Virus record (IMG/VR): IMGVR_UViG_3300008448_000392
Location: 1-31,356 of that record
Direction: 5' to 3' (one strand)
From: a virus
DNA length: 31,356 nt
Shown here: positions 13,555 to 23,013 of the stretch, piece after piece
Numbering within the stretch: position 1 is the stretch's first letter
Layout: each line of letters starts with the position of its first letter
Made by a program: the position numbers and the translations under genes
Notes under the pieces: generated by a model
Told to the model about the DNA's origin: nothing
Database searches by the model: none
The model's input: only the letters and a program-made list of their open reading frames with translations

Positions 13555-15446
13555 TAGAAGTTATACAGCTTGATTGATGGGGTTAGCAATGTAGTAGTCT
13601 GACCAACCGTTTCAATATTCGAAGCAGTAGATAGTGTCAGATTAGTATTGTCATCAATAACATTTACTTCACTCTGCGAGATTAGTAGAATCTGATTTCT
13701 TACAGGTGTGATATTTGGATTCAATGGAGCAGCAATAATAGAAATGCTTTCTCCAGTATAGGCTTCAGGTACAAAGTTTGTTATTGTTACTGTACCAGTG
13801 TCATAATCAATTGATCCAACATTGTAGTTGGTATATACTCGTCCAAGTCTACCTGCTGTCGATGGATAGTAAATACGAAGTGTACCAAATCCATTATCGT
13901 CAAAGTATGATGTTTGACCTGCGTAGGTAAAAGAAGAAGAAGTTACAGAACCATATCCTGGGTGTCGTGATACACCGCTAATCAACTCTTTAGTACCCAA
14001 ACGCTGAAGAGGATTGTTGAACTTCAACGAATAAGAATTGACGCCAGTTAGATTTGGCGTAAATGTTTTTCTCAAACGAATCTGCGCGTCTGTTGTTTGA
14101 ATGGCATCGTCTGTCGAATCAAGATAGTCGAGGAATCTTGAGAAACGGAAGCTATTGCCGAATGTCGATAGATAGTTTTCTTCAAAGGAAACGATACGAG
14201 CAGCAACAGCGGCTGCAAGCTCGCCTGGTGTTTTTGTCGTAAGCGATAGATTATATCTCACGTTTACCGTAGGAACCATGTACAGATATGTTGGATCGAC
14301 AATTTCGGTATCGATAGCTTGAACATTATACTTGTTTAGCTTTGCAATGATTTCATCTTTGCGTGAAGCTGAGAACAATGTTCCTGTCTTTGGCTTCGCA
14401 GCGATAAACACTTTGCCGTAGATAGGCGGATCGTTTTCTTCGCCACCCCACACATTGACAGCAGAGATATCTGGATTTTGATCCAGTAGCAATCTTCTAT
14501 AGTCCTCTGATGTTACGCAACGATTTTGTGTCTCGTACATTCGTGGCGCATTGAAGCGAACCGACTCAATGCTTTCGATACTAGAGCCACCAGAAGAACG
14601 ACCCATTGGAACAATTGTAATACCAGATTGACCATCAATTGTTGTATTGACAAGCGTAAATGTATTTGCGCCGTTCGGAAGTCCAGCATTACATACACGA
14701 TATGAAACAGTAATGATAGAAGATGTAGCTGGCTGAACACCAAGCACACCATCACCAAAACCAATCTTATACTTTTGCTGACGATCTGCTTCGACAAAGT
14801 AAATTTTAGAACTTGAGTTTACAGAGAGAATATCGTTACCAAGTACATATGTTTGCGTATTGCCGCCAGATGTTACCGTAACTGAAATGCTTGTTGTATC
14901 TACCATTTCATTTGGTAGAACAAAAGACGTATTCGAGCTTCTATTATAAACAAATCTATGTGTTAGCGGTTCGCCTTCAACAATATTGATATAATCGGCA
15001 AAGCCGTTTGAAGTATTGGCAGTAATCGTATATGTCTGTGGTGTAACAAATTTATATGTTGCACCATTTACAACTGCGTTGAAAGCTGTATCCTTAGGAA
15101 CACGAATTGATCTAAAAGTTGTATTGGCAAACGAGTTGGTAAAGATAAGCTGCACATTAGCACGAGCGCCACGCGCTGATCTTGGCGTATAGCCAAGTGC
15201 CTTAGCATGAGATACAACCGAGTCATATAGCTGAGCTGAATCGATAAAGCTTTCATTGACTGCCATGTTTGCATAGAACGCATTATAATACGTATTGTAT
15301 GCAAGCAAATCAAGCAACGTACCTAAAGCTGAGTCCGCAAAGTCATAATCAGCAAAATCTTGTTTCGACGCAATATAGTTGCGAAGATTGCTACGGATTG
15401 TATCAAAGTCCAATCCTGTTACGATGAGGTCGGTGTTGACTGCCAT
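13554..15446 (-). CDS. 6: Baseplate wedge subunit gp6 (gpJ-like)
   Basis: 630 residues versus 660 in T4. The N-terminus (DFDTIRSNLRNYIASKQDFA, then ALGTLLDLLAYNTYYNAFYA and NMAVNESFIDSAQLYDSVVS) is the classic gp6 start. The middle contains the baseplate_J-type region around SYRVCNAGLPNGAN and ESIESVRFNAPRMYETQNRC, followed by TSEDYRRLLLDQNPDISAVN. gp6 dimers form the inner wedge ring with gp53, gp25 and gp7. It overlaps gp25 by one nt at its start and the next gene by one nt at its end (TAATG both times), so the three are translationally coupled. Nothing looks truncated. Confidence 0.92.
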   Translation of the reverse strand: MAVNTDLIVTGLDFDTIRSNLRNYIASKQDFADYDFADSALGTLLDLLAYNTYYNAFYANMAVNESFIDSAQLYDSVVSHAKALGYTPRSARGARANVQLIFTNSFANTTFRSIRVPKDTAFNAVVNGATYKFVTPQTYTITANTSNGFADYINIVEGEPLTHRFVYNRSSNTSFVLPNEMVDTTSISVTVTSGGNTQTYVLGNDILSVNSSSKIYFVEADRQQKYKIGFGDGVLGVQPATSSIITVSYRVCNAGLPNGANTFTLVNTTIDGQSGITIVPMGRSSGGSSIESIESVRFNAPRMYETQNRCVTSEDYRRLLLDQNPDISAVNVWGGEENDPPIYGKVFIAAKPKTGTLFSASRKDEIIAKLNKYNVQAIDTEIVDPTYLYMVPTVNVRYNLSLTTKTPGELAAAVAARIVSFEENYLSTFGNSFRFSRFLDYLDSTDDAIQTTDAQIRLRKTFTPNLTGVNSYSLKFNNPLQRLGTKELISGVSRHPGYGSVTSSSFTYAGQTSYFDDNGFGTLRIYYPSTAGRLGRVYTNYNVGSIDYDTGTVTITNFVPEAYTGESISIIAAPLNPNITPVRNQILLISQSEVNVIDDNTNLTLSTASNIETVGQTTTLLTPSIKLYNF

Positions 15447-15868
15447 TATCGGACCCTATTGAGATTGATGTCGATATCAACGTCGTTGAGTGTAACGGCG
15501 TTTCTAAACTTGACTGTAATATAAAGTTGGTTACTATCTCTGTTCTCAGTAACAACTACACCACCATTTTCAGCAACAACAGCTCTTGGTTCGTAATTCT
15601 TGATAGCCGTTGTAATCTGGTTTTCGTAGTCGCTGGCAAAAATAGTATCGAAGTTATCGAATAGACGCTTACGAACATCTCCGCCAAACTCTGGGCGAAA
15701 CGGACGCTCGTAGCGATTTGTCAGCAAAAGGTTCTTTAGTCCTTGCTTGACCGCATCGTCATCCTTCTTGACAAGCAGCTTGCCTGTCGATGGATGCGCA
15801 CGAAACATAAGATCAAAGTCTTTGTTTGTGGTTTTGCCGAGCGATGGTGGTAGTGGTCTTTTTTTCAT
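15446..15868 (-). CDS. 25: Baseplate wedge subunit gp25
   Basis: 140 residues, close to T4 gp25 (132). Signature features: the N-terminal SLGKTTNKDFDLMF, the central LKNLLLTNRYERPFRPEFGG, LFDNFDT, and the conserved Glu-Pro-Arg motif at residues 93-95 (KNYEPRA). gp25 nucleates sheath attachment at the wedge; the family is called lysozyme-like by fold only. The start ATG 15868 has an AAAGGA ribosome site. A 77-nt non-coding gap separates it from the preceding gene, and this gap holds a near-consensus late promoter on this strand. Confidence 0.93.
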   Translation of the reverse strand: MKKRPLPPSLGKTTNKDFDLMFRAHPSTGKLLVKKDDDAVKQGLKNLLLTNRYERPFRPEFGGDVRKRLFDNFDTIFASDYENQITTAIKNYEPRAVVAENGGVVVTENRDSNQLYITVKFRNAVTLNDVDIDINLNRVR

Positions 15869-15884
15869 ATGTTTTCCTTTATCT

Positions 15885-15892
15885 TATTTATT
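15885..15892 (-). promoter_or_regulatory. Candidate late promoter ahead of gp25 (AATAAATA)
   Basis: AATAAATA on the minus strand, one base from TATAAATA, 17 nt upstream of the gp25 ATG in a non-coding gap and followed by the AAAGGA ribosome site. Placement matches the other late promoters in this window. Confidence 0.5.
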
Positions 15893-15905
15893 CTGAAAAA
15901 AAGAC

Positions 15906-15934
15906 TTGACAAATCAATCAAACGCCATTATAAT
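15906..15934 (+). promoter_or_regulatory. Perfect-consensus sigma70 promoter, antisense to the late operon
   Basis: TTGACA at 15906-15911, a 17-nt spacer, then TATAAT at 15929-15934, all on the plus strand. Both hexamers and the spacing are the ideal bacterial housekeeping form. The predicted start is near 15941, at the 3' end of the minus-strand 439-residue gene, so the RNA would be antisense to it and to the spike and hub genes. No convincing plus-strand gene lies downstream before 22567. Confidence 0.7.
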
Positions 15935-15945
15935 AGGAATTGTAT

Positions 15946-17265
15946 TCAGGCGGTCGTAATACTCGTATTAGCTTTAGCTGCCGCAGCTTTATCCGTTTCC
16001 TCGATAATATGCAATGCTTCAGCCACCGTCGATGTTGGTTTGATAGCAGGATACTTCTTGATTAGTTCCGGATAGCTATACTTAGTAAGTTTGGTATAGT
16101 CAACTTGCTGTAATAGTTCTGCTGTATGCTTTTCGATCTTAGCAGAGATTTCCAGTCTTTTCTTTTCCAAATTCTCTTTAGACTTGTCTCGTCCATAGCC
16201 ACCAGAGCCCCAATTAGCACTATTTGCAGTCGAGGTTAGTTTCTGTGGGCCATAAGATGTCTTAGCAGGACTATCAGCAATTAGATTGTTGCGCGGACCA
16301 ATTGTCGACATAATACCCATAAACTTGGATAGAGGCTGATTTAGCGTCGAAAGCGATGAGCCGGCTGCTGATTCCGCAAATAGATTTTTTGGTATAATAG
16401 GATCTTTTGGCTTTGTTGGTGGCTTGAGCTTCTGTGGTCCTTGTGCGTCTTTTGTTGGAGCAATAGTAACCTTAGGAAGCATCTTGAGTGCGCCGCTTGC
16501 CAATACAAGATTAGGAACAAGTGTAGCAAAGTTTGGTTTACGACCAGAAGCGGCAGTAGCGAGAAGCACACCAGCCATCGCGTTCATATTGAGCATAGGG
16601 AAGTTTGCTTGGATACCAGCAGCTTTAGCAGCGAACCCGATCGGGTCAGCGGCAATCTTTGTGAGTGATGCAATCTCGTTAGCAAGTGGGATCTGACTTG
16701 CTAAATCTGCAAGTCCAGGAATGCCACTCAATAGATTACCTTTGATAGCAGCAAAAACAAGAGACGCTGGTCCAGATAGACCTAGCTGCATAAGCACTTT
16801 TACTTGTGCAATCTTATTTACAATGTCTGCAGCTCCACCAAACTTGAATGGTAGTGCGCCTGTTAGGTTCTTGATTGCGCCCGTAACAGCAGAGATCGGT
16901 CCGTCGAGTCCAGCGCCAAGAAAGTCTTTAGCAAGTCCAGTCATTGCGTCAAGTGCACCAGTCTGCTTGAGCGCAGCAAGACCAACGAGAATAGCTGGAT
17001 CAATTTGATATGGAGGCGCACGATAGCCAAGTGGATCTTGAATCATACGCTTTGCTTCAGCATGATTGACCAATTCAGGATGGTCGCGATTCATTCGCTC
17101 CAGCAATTCACAGAGTTCGTTTGTTCCGGTATAGATGTATTGCTTGCCGTTGAGCGTATATTTGTCGCCCTTAGCAAGAGGCGTCTTGTTATCCGCTTCC
17201 TGCTTTAGTTGAGCGAGACGCTCACGCTTCGAAACAATATCTGGTGTATCTGGTATATCTGCCAT
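15946..17265 (-). CDS. Unknown protein of the spike/hub locus, alanine-rich hydrophobic core
   Basis: 439 residues. I do not recognise the family. The N-terminus is charged, with a YTLNGKQYIYTGTNELCELL segment near residues 37-56. Residues about 90-290 are Ala/Gly/Leu-rich and moderately hydrophobic (LVGLAALKQTGALDAMTGLA, LSGIPGLADLASQIPL, NAMAGVLLATAASG); residues 290-370 form a Pro/Lys/Ser-rich linker; the last ~70 (from ENLEKKRLEISAKIEKH) are helical and charged, probably coiled coil. No catalytic motif is visible. ATG 17265 lies 2 nt after the stop of a 25-codon ORF and has no ribosome site of its own, so translation probably depends on that ORF. Position next to the split gp5 suggests a hub or spike-associated, perhaps membrane-interacting protein. 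Confidence 0.7.
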   Translation of the reverse strand: MADIPDTPDIVSKRERLAQLKQEADNKTPLAKGDKYTLNGKQYIYTGTNELCELLERMNRDHPELVNHAEAKRMIQDPLGYRAPPYQIDPAILVGLAALKQTGALDAMTGLAKDFLGAGLDGPISAVTGAIKNLTGALPFKFGGAADIVNKIAQVKVLMQLGLSGPASLVFAAIKGNLLSGIPGLADLASQIPLANEIASLTKIAADPIGFAAKAAGIQANFPMLNMNAMAGVLLATAASGRKPNFATLVPNLVLASGALKMLPKVTIAPTKDAQGPQKLKPPTKPKDPIIPKNLFAESAAGSSLSTLNQPLSKFMGIMSTIGPRNNLIADSPAKTSYGPQKLTSTANSANWGSGGYGRDKSKENLEKKRLEISAKIEKHTAELLQQVDYTKLTKYSYPELIKKYPAIKPTSTVAEALHIIEETDKAAAAKANTSITTA

Positions 17266-17360: not shown

Positions 17361-18251
17361 CTATGTTGGGTAGAATCCGCCTACGCCAGGAATAGTAGAT
17401 GCTGTATCAATCTTAGATCCATCATCCGTTTCAACAAGCAATTTGCCGCCGGAACCAATACGAACGTCGTGATCTTTCGAAAAGATGCCAGCTTTGTAAC
17501 CCGAAGCCGCTACAACAGTTCCGCCACTACCAGAGCTTTCGACAAGAATAGCGTAGCTATCTCTAATAAAAGTACCTGTTACTGCGCGGGTTTGAATCTG
17601 TGTTTGCGACTGCAACTTCATAATATCAGCAGAAGCAAGACCCATTTGAGTGCCAGCACCAATACCAACTTGTTTTGTGGCAATAGCTTGAAAATCTTCG
17701 CCAGCAAGAACAGCGTAGTTTCCACCAGAGATAACAGTTGACTCTGTTCCTGTGGATTGGAAATACTCGTTGTTATTTGTTTCGGTCTTATTACCGCCAG
17801 TTACTTCGTCGCGATTGCCTGATGTACGATGGGCTGTCTTGCCGTTGACTTGTGTGCGCTGATCACCAATGACTTCGCGTAGCTCGTTGCCGCCAACTTT
17901 TACTTTGAGATCGCCACCAATATTCAACTCGTAGTTTCCGTCAACATGCTGAATGACGTTGCCTGTGCAATAGATATTGATCGGACCATTGACTGTTAGA
18001 TTGAATTCACCGGTGGTTACTTCGTCACGCCCTTTGTCGTTGAAGTCTTGTCGACCGCCCTTAGCAGTCGTGATCATAGCTCCATCGTCTTTGATCTCGA
18101 CGAATGTTCCTGACTTGTGGTAGATGTGAATACGGCAATCGCCTGGAGTATTATCAAACTCCACGACATGACCGGCTTCAGTCGTATAGGTATGATTGCC
18201 GAGATACTCGGACTTCTTACCGCCTTGATCCTGTTGATTCCAATCTGCCAT
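17361..18251 (-). CDS. gp5 C-terminal-like central spike protein (beta-helix)
   Basis: 296 residues. The N-terminus (GNHTYTTEAGHVVEFDNTPG, then RIHIYHKSGTFVEIKDDGAM) is the typical entry of gp5/VgrG spike domains. Residues about 80-200 are short V-x-G-x repeats (TVNGPINIYCTGNVIQHVDG, LKVKVGGNELREVIGDQRTQ, VNGKTAHRTSGNRDEVTGGN), which in T4 gp5 form the trimeric beta-helix that punctures the outer membrane. There is no lysozyme domain and no OB domain; the OB part is a separate gene two genes upstream. Ribosome site AGGAT, 3-nt gap from the previous gene. In T4 these parts are one 575-residue protein that is cleaved after the lysozyme; here the spike is encoded on its own. Confidence 0.85.
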   Translation of the reverse strand: MADWNQQDQGGKKSEYLGNHTYTTEAGHVVEFDNTPGDCRIHIYHKSGTFVEIKDDGAMITTAKGGRQDFNDKGRDEVTTGEFNLTVNGPINIYCTGNVIQHVDGNYELNIGGDLKVKVGGNELREVIGDQRTQVNGKTAHRTSGNRDEVTGGNKTETNNNEYFQSTGTESTVISGGNYAVLAGEDFQAIATKQVGIGAGTQMGLASADIMKLQSQTQIQTRAVTGTFIRDSYAILVESSGSGGTVVAASGYKAGIFSKDHDVRIGSGGKLLVETDDGSKIDTASTIPGVGGFYPT

Positions 18252-18254
18252 ATT

Positions 18255-19076
18255 TTATCCTATTGATCCTAAACCTATTGTTCCGCCTTGAACTTCAGGC
18301 ACTCCTAGCGCAGCTGCTCCTGCTGCTTCAGCTTGTTTAGCAGCTGTTTCGTCAAGTGCACTAATAGTATCTGTTGGCATCGAGCCGGCAGAAAGAAAAT
18401 CAAGATTATCTATAACATTTAGATCGCTTGCTGCAGCGCGCTCAATATCTGTCAGACTATATGTTCCAGCAGCACTTGCTGTAGGATCTACAGCTTTATT
18501 CTGCACAGGATTTGCTTTTACGTTACCCTTGCGCTGTGTCTTGTCTTTACTCTTGACGATTGTTTCTTCGACGCGTTCTTCGTTACCACGACCCACAAGT
18601 GATGTTGAAGCATCGTCGTTGAGCGTTGGATGAACAGAAGGGACGGGAGCAATACCGTTCTTGCCGCCAAATAGTTTATTCAAGTTTGCCATAAGCAAAG
18701 CAACAGTCGCAACCTTTTCGAGTAGTGTTGGATTCTGTTGTTGAATCTGTACTGGCGTTGGTGGTATAATGGTAATACCAGTTTCCTTAGTATCACTCGC
18801 AAGAATAGTGTCTGTCGCTATATCTGATACGTAAGCTTCGACCTGATATGTTCCGGGCTTGAGCGGTGTAGAGAATTGCAGCTTCCATTTATTTGGCTGT
18901 ACTGTTTCGTCTAGACCTAAATTACCTTCAAACAGTTTATATCTTGTATAATTGACATAAACAGATATTGTTTCTTTTGCTTTTCCAGGAGCACTAAAAC
19001 GCTGAAAGTCAACATAGCCCGTAAGTGTAGGCACAGTATTAGATGTTGAAAGCGGCGTAATACTAATTGAACTCAT
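18255..19076 (-). CDS. Ig-like protein between the two gp5 pieces
   Basis: 273 residues. Residues about 1-105 look like a beta-sandwich (Ig-like) domain: SISITPLSTSNTVPTLTGYV, a KWKLQFSTPLKPGTYQVEAY strand pair and a final TGITIIPPTPVQ. Residues about 115-140 are hydrophobic and helical (TLLEKVATVALLMANLNKLF). The rest is low-complexity Ala/Ser/Thr/Lys sequence ending Gly-rich. No lysozyme or protease motif is visible. It overlaps the OB-fold gene by 4 nt (ATGA) and is 3 nt from the spike gene, so all three are co-translated. I infer a connector or accessory subunit of the central spike; it sits where the T4 gp5 lysozyme would be but does not resemble it. Confidence 0.7.
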   Translation of the reverse strand: MSSISITPLSTSNTVPTLTGYVDFQRFSAPGKAKETISVYVNYTRYKLFEGNLGLDETVQPNKWKLQFSTPLKPGTYQVEAYVSDIATDTILASDTKETGITIIPPTPVQIQQQNPTLLEKVATVALLMANLNKLFGGKNGIAPVPSVHPTLNDDASTSLVGRGNEERVEETIVKSKDKTQRKGNVKANPVQNKAVDPTASAAGTYSLTDIERAAASDLNVIDNLDFLSAGSMPTDTISALDETAAKQAEAAGAAALGVPEVQGGTIGLGSIG

Positions 19077-19465
19077 GACATTGCTCCACCAGAGCCAATC
19101 GAGTTCTGCTCAGTATCTTCTTTTTGTTGAATATGTGGTAGCACGCCAATTGCTACAGGAAACTGTTCGCCGTCTCCGTCGAAAAAGAATCCAACCACTT
19201 TGCTATTCTCGACAATACCCGTAGGGCTGTGTCCCACTCCCGAGATACCTGCGGACGTCATAGGCATAAGTACATAGCACCACGGCAACTGACTCGTTGG
19301 CAAGTCGCCTTTATTATCCGTGTGCTTGCCCTTGATGCGCACTTTGATACGACCCAGCTTGAGATCGTCCTTCTCACCCGAGAACTGCCCAGTGCCGCGA
19401 TCCTCGACCACGCCGATCCACCACTTCAATCCGTCTTGTCCGAGAACTGTACCTAACTCAGCCAT
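19073..19465 (-). CDS. gp5 N-terminal-like OB-fold hub protein
   Basis: 130 residues matching only the OB-fold part of T4 gp5: WWIGVVEDRGTGQFSGEKDD, LKLGRIKVRIKGKHTDNKGD, PTSQLPWCYVLMPMTSAGIS and GVGHSPTGIVENSKVVGFFF align with the T4 pattern WWVGTVEDR, LGRCRVRI.G.H, LPW.SV..PITSA..SGIG, G.V.GT.V.G.F. T4 continues into the lysozyme; this protein ends about 25 residues after the domain. The OB domain docks the spike onto the gp27 hub, and the gp27-like gene lies directly upstream (2-nt gap). Ribosome site AAGGGA. Confidence 0.88.
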   Translation of the reverse strand: MAELGTVLGQDGLKWWIGVVEDRGTGQFSGEKDDLKLGRIKVRIKGKHTDNKGDLPTSQLPWCYVLMPMTSAGISGVGHSPTGIVENSKVVGFFFDGDGEQFPVAIGVLPHIQQKEDTEQNSIGSGGAMS

Positions 19466-21289: not shown

Positions 21290-22522
21290 TTAGTTAGTAG
21301 CACTATTTGGAATATCAAGCGCAGGATCTGGTGTTTTTCCAGGATTTGATGCGTTCCACTGTGCTGTTGAATTTCTGACAAGACCAGCAGCTTCATCCGG
21401 AGCAGCTCTCAAACGCTCTGCTATTTCCGGATCATTATAGACAGCCGACATATCAGCTGGTGGCGCTGATGGACGACCCAAAGTTTTATTGAGCGAATTC
21501 TTTGTGACGATCTCTGTTTCTTTGAACGATAGCGTCAATTCAACTTCAACTGGTGCAGGAGCTCCACCGCCATTTGCGTCACGAATATAAGCAGCAACGC
21601 CTTGACCATGGTAATTGACCTGAATATCTGTACAGACTGATGGCTGCAGCTCAAACAAATAATTTGGATGGCGGAACTTGATATTGAAGAACTCTGGATA
21701 TTTGAAGAATAAACCGCCGCCAACATATTCTGGGTGAGCATAATAAGTAAAAGCGTCAATAATCATTTTGATCATATTCGATTCTTCGCGGCTTCTTGGT
21801 GATAGCTTCCAAGAGAAGCGATGTTCGCGGAAATCAACGCCAGTAAATAATACGATCTTGTGAGGATTCTGTGCTACACCAAGACCTACCTTGAGTGCCG
21901 CTTCGAATGTACCTGCGCCGCCGATACCATTTACTGCTGTTCCGAGTGCGTTTGTGGCTGCAGCTGCTCCGCCTCGCCCGCCGCTTTCTAGTGCAGCACC
22001 AGAGATACCATCGCCGCCTGCTCCACCCAATAGAGAAGGAAGCGACGAATTATTATAAATTTTTTGGTCAAATGGTTTTAGAATAGCGCCAGCCGCTGCA
22101 CCCAGATCAGGTGTGCTATACTGTGGATTATAATCTGTGGTAAGACTAGACGGCATCGGAAGTCTAATCGTTGCGAGATTGACCTGATTGCCGATATTAG
22201 CTAGACCCTGTACGCCTTGACCAATAAATGCGTTGAGTTCATTTTTAGTAGCAAAGTCCTGAAATACTTTAGAATCAGCTAATTTACCAAAAGCATCAGA
22301 ACCTTGACCTTTTGTTTCGACTGCTTGAAATTCAATCCAGTGGTCAATTGTTTTGAGATCGTCTGGGAAATAATAGCTTGAGTCCTGAAAAGGATCTGGT
22401 CTGCTAATTTGTCCAACAAGAGAAACTCTTGGTGATGCTGTACGACTCAATGCTGTAAACGCTGCAGCGATGCCAGCAACACCGGTTGCAAGTCTTTCTG
22501 ATCTTAGTTGTTTAGCAGACAT
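21290..22522 (-). CDS. 48: Baseplate tail-tube cap gp48
   Basis: 410 residues versus 364 in T4. The tube-like core is recognisable from about residue 225: PHKIVLFTGVDFREHRFSWK, LSPRSREESNMIKMIIDAFT and FFKYPEFFNIKFRHPN align with the T4 gp48 segment ending in LTPRSTEDLMAIINIYQYF; the C-terminal VEVELTLSFKETEIVTKNSL closes the domain. The N-terminal ~200 residues are looser, with a Gly/Ala-rich stretch (GGAGGDGISGAALESGGRGG). gp48 forms the ring on the hub that starts the tube with gp54. A strong AGGAG ribosome site and an exact late promoter precede ATG 22522, making this the first gene of the minus-strand operon. Confidence 0.88.
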   Translation of the reverse strand: MSAKQLRSERLATGVAGIAAAFTALSRTASPRVSLVGQISRPDPFQDSSYYFPDDLKTIDHWIEFQAVETKGQGSDAFGKLADSKVFQDFATKNELNAFIGQGVQGLANIGNQVNLATIRLPMPSSLTTDYNPQYSTPDLGAAAGAILKPFDQKIYNNSSLPSLLGGAGGDGISGAALESGGRGGAAAATNALGTAVNGIGGAGTFEAALKVGLGVAQNPHKIVLFTGVDFREHRFSWKLSPRSREESNMIKMIIDAFTYYAHPEYVGGGLFFKYPEFFNIKFRHPNYLFELQPSVCTDIQVNYHGQGVAAYIRDANGGGAPAPVEVELTLSFKETEIVTKNSLNKTLGRPSAPPADMSAVYNDPEIAERLRAAPDEAAGLVRNSTAQWNASNPGKTPDPALDIPNSATN

Positions 22523-22543
22523 TGAAACTCCTTTTCGATATGA

Positions 22544-22551
22544 TATTTATA
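22544..22551 (-). promoter_or_regulatory. T4-type late promoter ahead of gp48
   Basis: Exact TATAAATA on the minus strand in the 44-nt gap between divergent genes, followed within about 13 nt by AGGAG and the gp48 ATG. It lies inside a perfect 7-bp inverted repeat (TCGATAT at 22535-22541 and ATATCGA at 22549-22555), so the promoter could be bound by a symmetric factor or form a hairpin. Confidence 0.75.
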
Positions 22552-22566
22552 TCGATACATAGTGCC

Positions 22567-23013
22567 ATGGCTACTTACAGAGGGCGCTTTCAGCCCAAAA
22601 ACCCAAACAAGTATAAAGGTGATCCAACGAACATTGTCTATCGTTCGTCGTGGGAATTACGCTTTATGAAATATCTCGATGAGAATCCAAATATAATTCA
22701 GTGGGCGTCAGAAGAATTATTCATACCATATAAATCCCCGCTCGACGGTAAATGGCATAGATATTTCCCAGACTTTATTATTCGTATGCGAGACCGCGAT
22801 GGCAAACTATCGACAAAGATGATTGAGATCAAACCGCGCTCACAGTCTGTACCACCGACAGTCAAAACAAATGGATCAAAGCCAACAAAGAAGTATCTGC
22901 GAGAGGTCGCAACTTACGGTATAAATATATCGAAGTGGGAAGCAGCGAAAGAATACTGCTTGGACCGCAACTGGGAATTCGTCGTATTGACGGAAAAAGA
23001 ATTAGGAATATAG
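22567..23013 (+). CDS. 4: Head completion nuclease-like protein gp4
   Basis: 148 residues from ATG 22567, close to T4 gp4 (150). The motifs RGRFQPKNPNKYKGDPTNIV, YRSSWELRFMKYLDENPNII and the TnsA-like endonuclease core (HRYFPDFIIRMRD with the downstream MIEIKPRSQ, a PD-x(n)-ExK arrangement) are typical. The protein completes DNA-filled heads before tail joining. An upstream TTG at 22522 and an ATG at 22540 are in frame, but the homologous start is MATYRGRF and the upstream part would overlap the divergent promoter. It is the first gene of the plus-strand cluster. Confidence 0.9.
   Translation: MATYRGRFQPKNPNKYKGDPTNIVYRSSWELRFMKYLDENPNIIQWASEELFIPYKSPLDGKWHRYFPDFIIRMRDRDGKLSTKMIEIKPRSQSVPPTVKTNGSKPTKKYLREVATYGINISKWEAAKEYCLDRNWEFVVLTEKELGI
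22920..22927 (+). promoter_or_regulatory. Candidate T4-type late promoter inside gp4
   Basis: Exact TATAAATA on the plus strand, about 88 nt upstream of the next start (TTG 23015). It overlaps Gly-Ile-Asn-Ile codons of gp4. It is the only exact plus-strand copy I found, and it points the same way as the genes it precedes. Confidence 0.45.

Follow-up and report, generated by a model that had tools for sequence, protein, structure and literature searches.

A perfect host-type promoter, site A, reads backward into the late genes of the T4-like late region carried by the sequence analysed here (the window: a phage fragment from IMG/VR, 31,356 bases long). Its conservation marks it as a real promoter element, long kept in evolution and predicted to be active, and, as judged by comparison of related contigs, it is one of about three backward promoters per genome that have a common leader (Table 1). 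The reading we prefer, to which we assign a probability of roughly 45%, is that site A acts as an early promoter for the host sigma70 polymerase which opposes or occludes late transcription of the baseplate module.

Table 1. Features of the site A region of the window and of the related sites B, C and D in other contigs
Feature	Position	Strand	Basis or remark
gp25 baseplate wedge gene, late-promoter driven, behind site A	15446..15868	-	Pfam GPW_gp25, E 1.5e-11
gp25 late promoter box AATAAATA, overlapping the upstream part of the site A promoter	15885..15892	-	late box 11-14 nt from -35 in 52/54 relatives
A-tract directly 5' of -35, at the place of the proximal UP subsite	15896..15902	+	AAAA in 50/54 relatives
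-35 hexamer TTGACA of site A, the putative antisense early promoter	15906..15911	+	kept in all relatives of the gp25 clade
Spacer of 17 nt, invariant in length, diverged in sequence	15912..15928	+	41 distinct spacers in 54 sites
-10 hexamer TATAAT of site A	15929..15934	+	conserved across the gp25 clade
Conserved leader: N5-6, TGTA (15941-15944), GCGGTCGTAATA core (15950-15961)	15935..15961	+	common to sites B, C and D
Predicted transcription start of site A, ~7 nt past -10	15941	+	inferred from sigma70 geometry
439-aa late-module (baseplate) gene, first crossed in antisense by site A	15946..17265	-	ORF
gp5-type baseplate hub genes, farther on the antisense path	17361..19465	-	Pfam-type domain matches
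Site B	uvsY (phrog_231)/tail tube (phrog_45) gap: L286-L329, G001:24723, G002:61500, G003:44625	anti-gene	12/12 and leader in whole contigs
Site C	beside phrog_455 gene: G003:78856, G002:30415, L282-L285 (six contigs)	anti-gene	overlapping TATAAATA late box upstream
Site D	G001:126731, G003:110160, G006:32414	sense	promoter and leader before MAILPIYY gene

Conservation of the promoter upstream of gp25

Site A has the form TTGACA-N17-TATAAT, matching the consensus at 12/12 hexamer positions with a spacer that lies within the 16-18-nt range of sigma70, and it occupies the 77-nt gap (15869-15945) between gp25 and the 439-aa late gene. The first-pass annotation had described it as an ideal sigma70 promoter in a non-coding gap, antisense to the late genes and with no sense gene downstream, and all of this holds: on the plus strand the first gene block beyond site A comes only at 22.5-29 kb. 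The same annotation called the element rare by chance, which stands insofar as site A is the only exact TTGACA/TATAAT match in the window when spacers of 15-19 nt are allowed, but it is only moderately unlikely: shuffled windows hold 0.12 exact matches on average, and since 11 of 100 shuffles contain at least one, rarity alone is weak evidence. The 439-aa product gave no match in searches of Pfam and PHROG, while the gp5-type region beyond it contains a weak Gp5_trimer_C-like match (17361-18251) and a Gp5_OB match (19073-19465).

To assess conservation, we took relatives of gp25 from viral contigs and scanned the gap upstream of the gene on the opposite strand. The conservation claim rests on an unbiased scan of 61 distinct gp25 loci, in which the best sigma70 match per locus was taken with spacers of 15-19 nt left free, because a second set of 54 sites had been preselected by hexamer pattern. 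In the unbiased scan 50 of the 61 loci carry 11-12/12 hexamer matches, always with a 17-nt spacer. Absence from near relatives, which the first-pass annotation had named as one of two results that would refute its reading, is not what we see: at gp25 identities of at least 54% the site is kept at this strength and spacing in 48/48 distinct loci, and the other two loci that bear it fall below 54%. The 11 loci that lack it upstream of gp25, among them those of the isolates Melnitz-3, C48C1, S-H9-2, OC and phiM12, all have gp25 identities of 50% or less. A DNA megablast against phages gave no match.

Within the 54-site set, pairwise identity is 98% over the hexamers (for which the set was preselected) and 40% over the spacers, 41 of which differ. 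Constant hexamers at constant spacing around a drifting spacer argue for a working promoter on the plus strand. They also speak against coincidence, and against the idea that the match reflects constraint on the other strand from the late promoter or the gene end: although a window with a perfect match is no great rarity, as the shuffles show, neither explanation accounts for the exact hexamers and spacing throughout the clade, nor for the recurrence of the arrangement at site B (see below). Conservation thus already refutes the chance reading, to which we attach a negligible probability.

Recurrence of the promoter and its leader at other loci

Perfect promoters number 2-11 per related whole contig (0 in the reversed control). 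Most lie on the gene strand, many with a Shine-Dalgarno (SD) sequence and ATG downstream, and on these grounds we take them to be the early promoters of this phage group. Intergenic matches of at least 11/12 that run against the gene strand are few: 2, 3, 3 and 1 in contigs G001, G002, G003 and G006, respectively. In these four contigs they comprise sites A, B and C only, and every one of them is a 12/12 match followed by the leader. The leader covers the first ~25 transcribed letters and has the consensus TGT, N5-6, (C/G)GGTCA, n, TA, beginning about five letters after the -10 hexamer. Since its core also occurs by chance inside genes, only leader matches coupled to a promoter were counted.

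Site B and the uvsY early promoter are arranged divergently, and transcription from B would cross the tail tube gene in antisense, followed by gp23. Site B is found at 10-12/12 with a 17-nt spacer in 33/33 distinct clade loci, most of them with the leader; the uvsY sense early promoter is present both inside and outside the clade, and more distant uvsY loci have this sense promoter only. No late promoter overlaps site B. Site C reads into genes that adjoin the TATAAATA late promoter, and its first target varies: the phrog_455 gene is crossed first in L282, L283, L285 and G003, and lies behind the promoter in G002. Site D, the one sense member, shares with site C of G003 the leader sequence GAGGGGTCAGTATAT. 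As a separate observation, three perfect sigma70 sites follow one another in tandem on the minus strand of Melnitz-3 (MZ577098.1 72881-73060), opposite small annotated plus-strand ORFs; these are perhaps another antisense cluster, or the small ORFs may have been annotated on the wrong strand.

The presence of the leader at A, B, C and the sense site D would suit an operator (or RNA target) of a phage regulator, through which promoter and leader are co-regulated with the gene at D while the antisense RNA would contribute little, and so would the form of the leader, a linear motif without RNA structure. We nevertheless regard this as improbable: no candidate regulator was identified, the D protein (MAILPIYY..., queried with its first 70 residues) has no PHROG match, and the core at D falls on a plausible SD sequence and start codon, so that translation may account for some of the resemblance.

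The first-pass annotation had also suggested that site A might express a small RNA or a small unrecognised gene, an idea invited by a strong promoter that leads to no annotated gene. Neither suggestion gained support. An ORF with SD sequence and start codon begins within the first 130 nt in only 5/52 sites, and none is common across the clade; we found no plus-strand terminator nearby in a search downstream of site A, no conserved structure in folds of the leader RNA (mean z 0.03 over 52 sites) and no match in Rfam. Sequence conservation ends ~25 nt into the site A transcript, with nothing clear further on beyond coding. A discrete small RNA or small protein gene is thus very improbable, and these results, along with the variable target at C, suggest that the element functions mainly in cis, through promoter and leader.

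Overlap with the gp25 late promoter and a possible early block on late genes

The first-pass annotation had noticed a late promoter for gp25 close by on the other strand, and it is indeed there: the box lies 13 nt from the -35 hexamer of site A, and the gp25 start codon follows 24 nt on. It is of the NATAAATA type and stands, as expected of such boxes, a short distance 5' of an SD sequence and start codon; boxes of this type are biased to the gene strand (18, 29 and 18 in G001, G002 and G003 vs 1, 3 and 3 on the opposite strand). The distance between late box and -35 hexamer is nearly fixed, with the two exceptions among the 54 sites having 1-2 nt. The majority of the remaining early promoters in these phages lack the AAAA that directly precedes the -35 hexamer in most sites (Table 1). 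In the geometry of UP elements, the proximal subsite corresponds to the place of this A-tract and the distal subsite to that of the late box. Given this overlap, two polymerases could hardly use site A and the gp25 late promoter at once. Other late promoters have antisense sigma70 scores of 6-9, which is background.

Two further details of the locus were recorded. Loci L015 and L148 have no A-tract and a gap of 1-2 nt between late box and -35 hexamer, vs 12-13, a spacing about one helical turn shorter, with both promoters intact. A perfect 12-nt inverted repeat, GTCTTTTTTTCA / TGAAAAAAAGAC (window 15856-15867 and 15894-15905), flanks the late box and the start codon of gp25 and is probably a chance product of the MKKR start.

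The first-pass annotation had proposed an early antisense RNA that blocks premature late expression, and this idea remains the leading candidate mechanism. The features described above would fit the following sequence of events. Early in infection, host RNA polymerase would use the strong antisense promoter, and the holoenzyme at site A would cover the gp25 late box. In these genomes early and late genes lie mostly on one strand, and transcripts running against this co-directional gene strand could prevent premature expression of late genes by read-through or from leaky late promoters. Once the polymerase switches to the late sigma factor of the phage, the antisense promoter would fall silent and the late promoter would be freed. 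The effect would be exerted in cis by promoter and leader and not by the body of a specific antisense RNA; for the leader itself, the likeliest role is that of a binding site, or of an element in the initial transcribed sequence, that jointly sets or shuts off these promoters.

All three antisense sites point into late genes, A into the gp5 module, B into the tail tube gene and gp23, and C into the genes by the late promoter. Occlusion, however, is not their common function, as site B, which diverges from the uvsY early promoter, overlaps no late promoter, and the lack of a conserved target at C argues against a specific antisense target. Late loci equipped with such a promoter number only 2-3 per genome, vs 3-18 intergenic late-promoter-like sites per contig. 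That so few late promoters have an antisense partner, and that the leader also precedes the sense gene at site D, both weigh against an early lock on the late genes.

Possible replication origins and comparison with known systems

The same architecture could also belong to a replication origin primed by transcription. In phage T4, oriE lies inside gene 5, and its record states that the 'primer RNA is complement of gene 5 transcript' (AF158101). By analogy, an early antisense transcript from site A would form an R-loop near its start, its 3' end would prime the leading strand, and A, B and C would be several origins with a common start sequence. Site A lies in the interval between gene 5 and gene 6 and reads in the same direction as T4 oriE, and site B adjoins uvsY, the location of T4 oriF, although this synteny argument is post hoc. 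The restriction of conservation to the promoter and ~25 nt, and the unconserved antisense target at C, also suit an origin, and the clustered G residues of the leader would be expected to favour an R-loop.

Several marks of an origin were sought at site A and not found. No iterons (12-nt repeats, clustered in oriE) lie nearby, and no conserved ORF that could correspond to RepEA or RepEB starts in the first 130 nt. The A+T content downstream, at 60.5%, is only slightly raised over the genome (54-57%), with no clear unwinding element. Cumulative GC skew peaks within 60 nt of site A in G003 and G006, but we rejected this as an origin signal: fourfold sites show no switch there, for which reason we put the maxima down to amino-acid composition. 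On balance, an oriE-like origin is a tentative but real possibility. The stronger proposal, that A, B and C form a family of origins defined by a perfect host promoter and a TGT-N5-6-GGGTCA leader, with origin firing and late transcription mutually exclusive at A and C, is rather doubtful; if true, it would be the first sequence-defined origin family in T4-like phages. We prefer the early antisense lock to the origin, while noting that the two are compatible, as a single early antisense transcript could serve both ends.

Early antisense transcription has been measured in phage PAK_P3, a precedent for such a lock: 15 of its 20 early antisense RNAs lie in the structural region, where they have been proposed to keep late structural genes shut early (PMC4933390). 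The predicted antisense start of site A falls within the structural region as well. In PAK_P3, however, the 20 mapped RNAs are nearly all intragenic, whereas the promoters predicted here are intergenic, number 1-3 per contig and share a leader; the overlap with late promoters at A and C is a further difference. T4 oriE likewise has an early promoter in the gene 5-6 region and an RNA complementary to gene 5, but it lies within gene 5 and not in the gap before gp25, it has the iterons and repEA/repEB that we did not find near site A, and the T4 origins share no motif, unlike A, B and C (AF158101; PMC3016281). Overlapping host-type early and NATAAATA late promoters at one locus are known from RB49 and S-PM2, where both drive the same gene, while the pair of site A and gp25 point in opposite directions (PMC2984593). 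Antisense RNA in a T4-like phage is exemplified by CfrI of cyanophage S-PM2, which differs in being a ~225-nt RNA that links psbA and a homing endonuclease gene, at another locus and with no shared leader known (PMC2984593).

Consensus promoters, NATAAATA late promoters, early antisense RNAs of phages and an antisense early promoter at an origin are thus already known. A search of the open-licence literature returned no account of antisense early promoters that recur as a conserved family at several sites, have one leader in common and overlap late promoters; this combination appears to be new. Beyond the one sequence, its interest is evolutionary: a T4-like lineage keeps a few strong host-type promoters, with the same leader, directed against its own late genes. 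This makes two questions testable: whether lytic phages deliberately lock their late genes by means of early antisense promoters, and how replication origins are marked in T4-like phages other than the coliphages. Promoter and leader together also form a recognisable signature.

One further candidate role was considered and rejected. In all four contigs site A points at the largest block of genes on the opposite strand, which motivated the idea that it serves the plus-strand block at 22.5-29 kb. That block is 6.6 kb away and has its own conserved late-like region before gp4, and no comparable block is found at sites B and C. The gap between the divergent gp48-like and gp4-like genes at the start of the block (22523-22566) contains the near-palindrome GATATTTATATC and a conserved ATACATA and is possibly a bidirectional late promoter. 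For the gp4-like ORF (22522-23013), whose product matches the N domain of TnsA-like nucleases (E 3.7e-24), ATG 22567 is a likelier start than TTG 22522.
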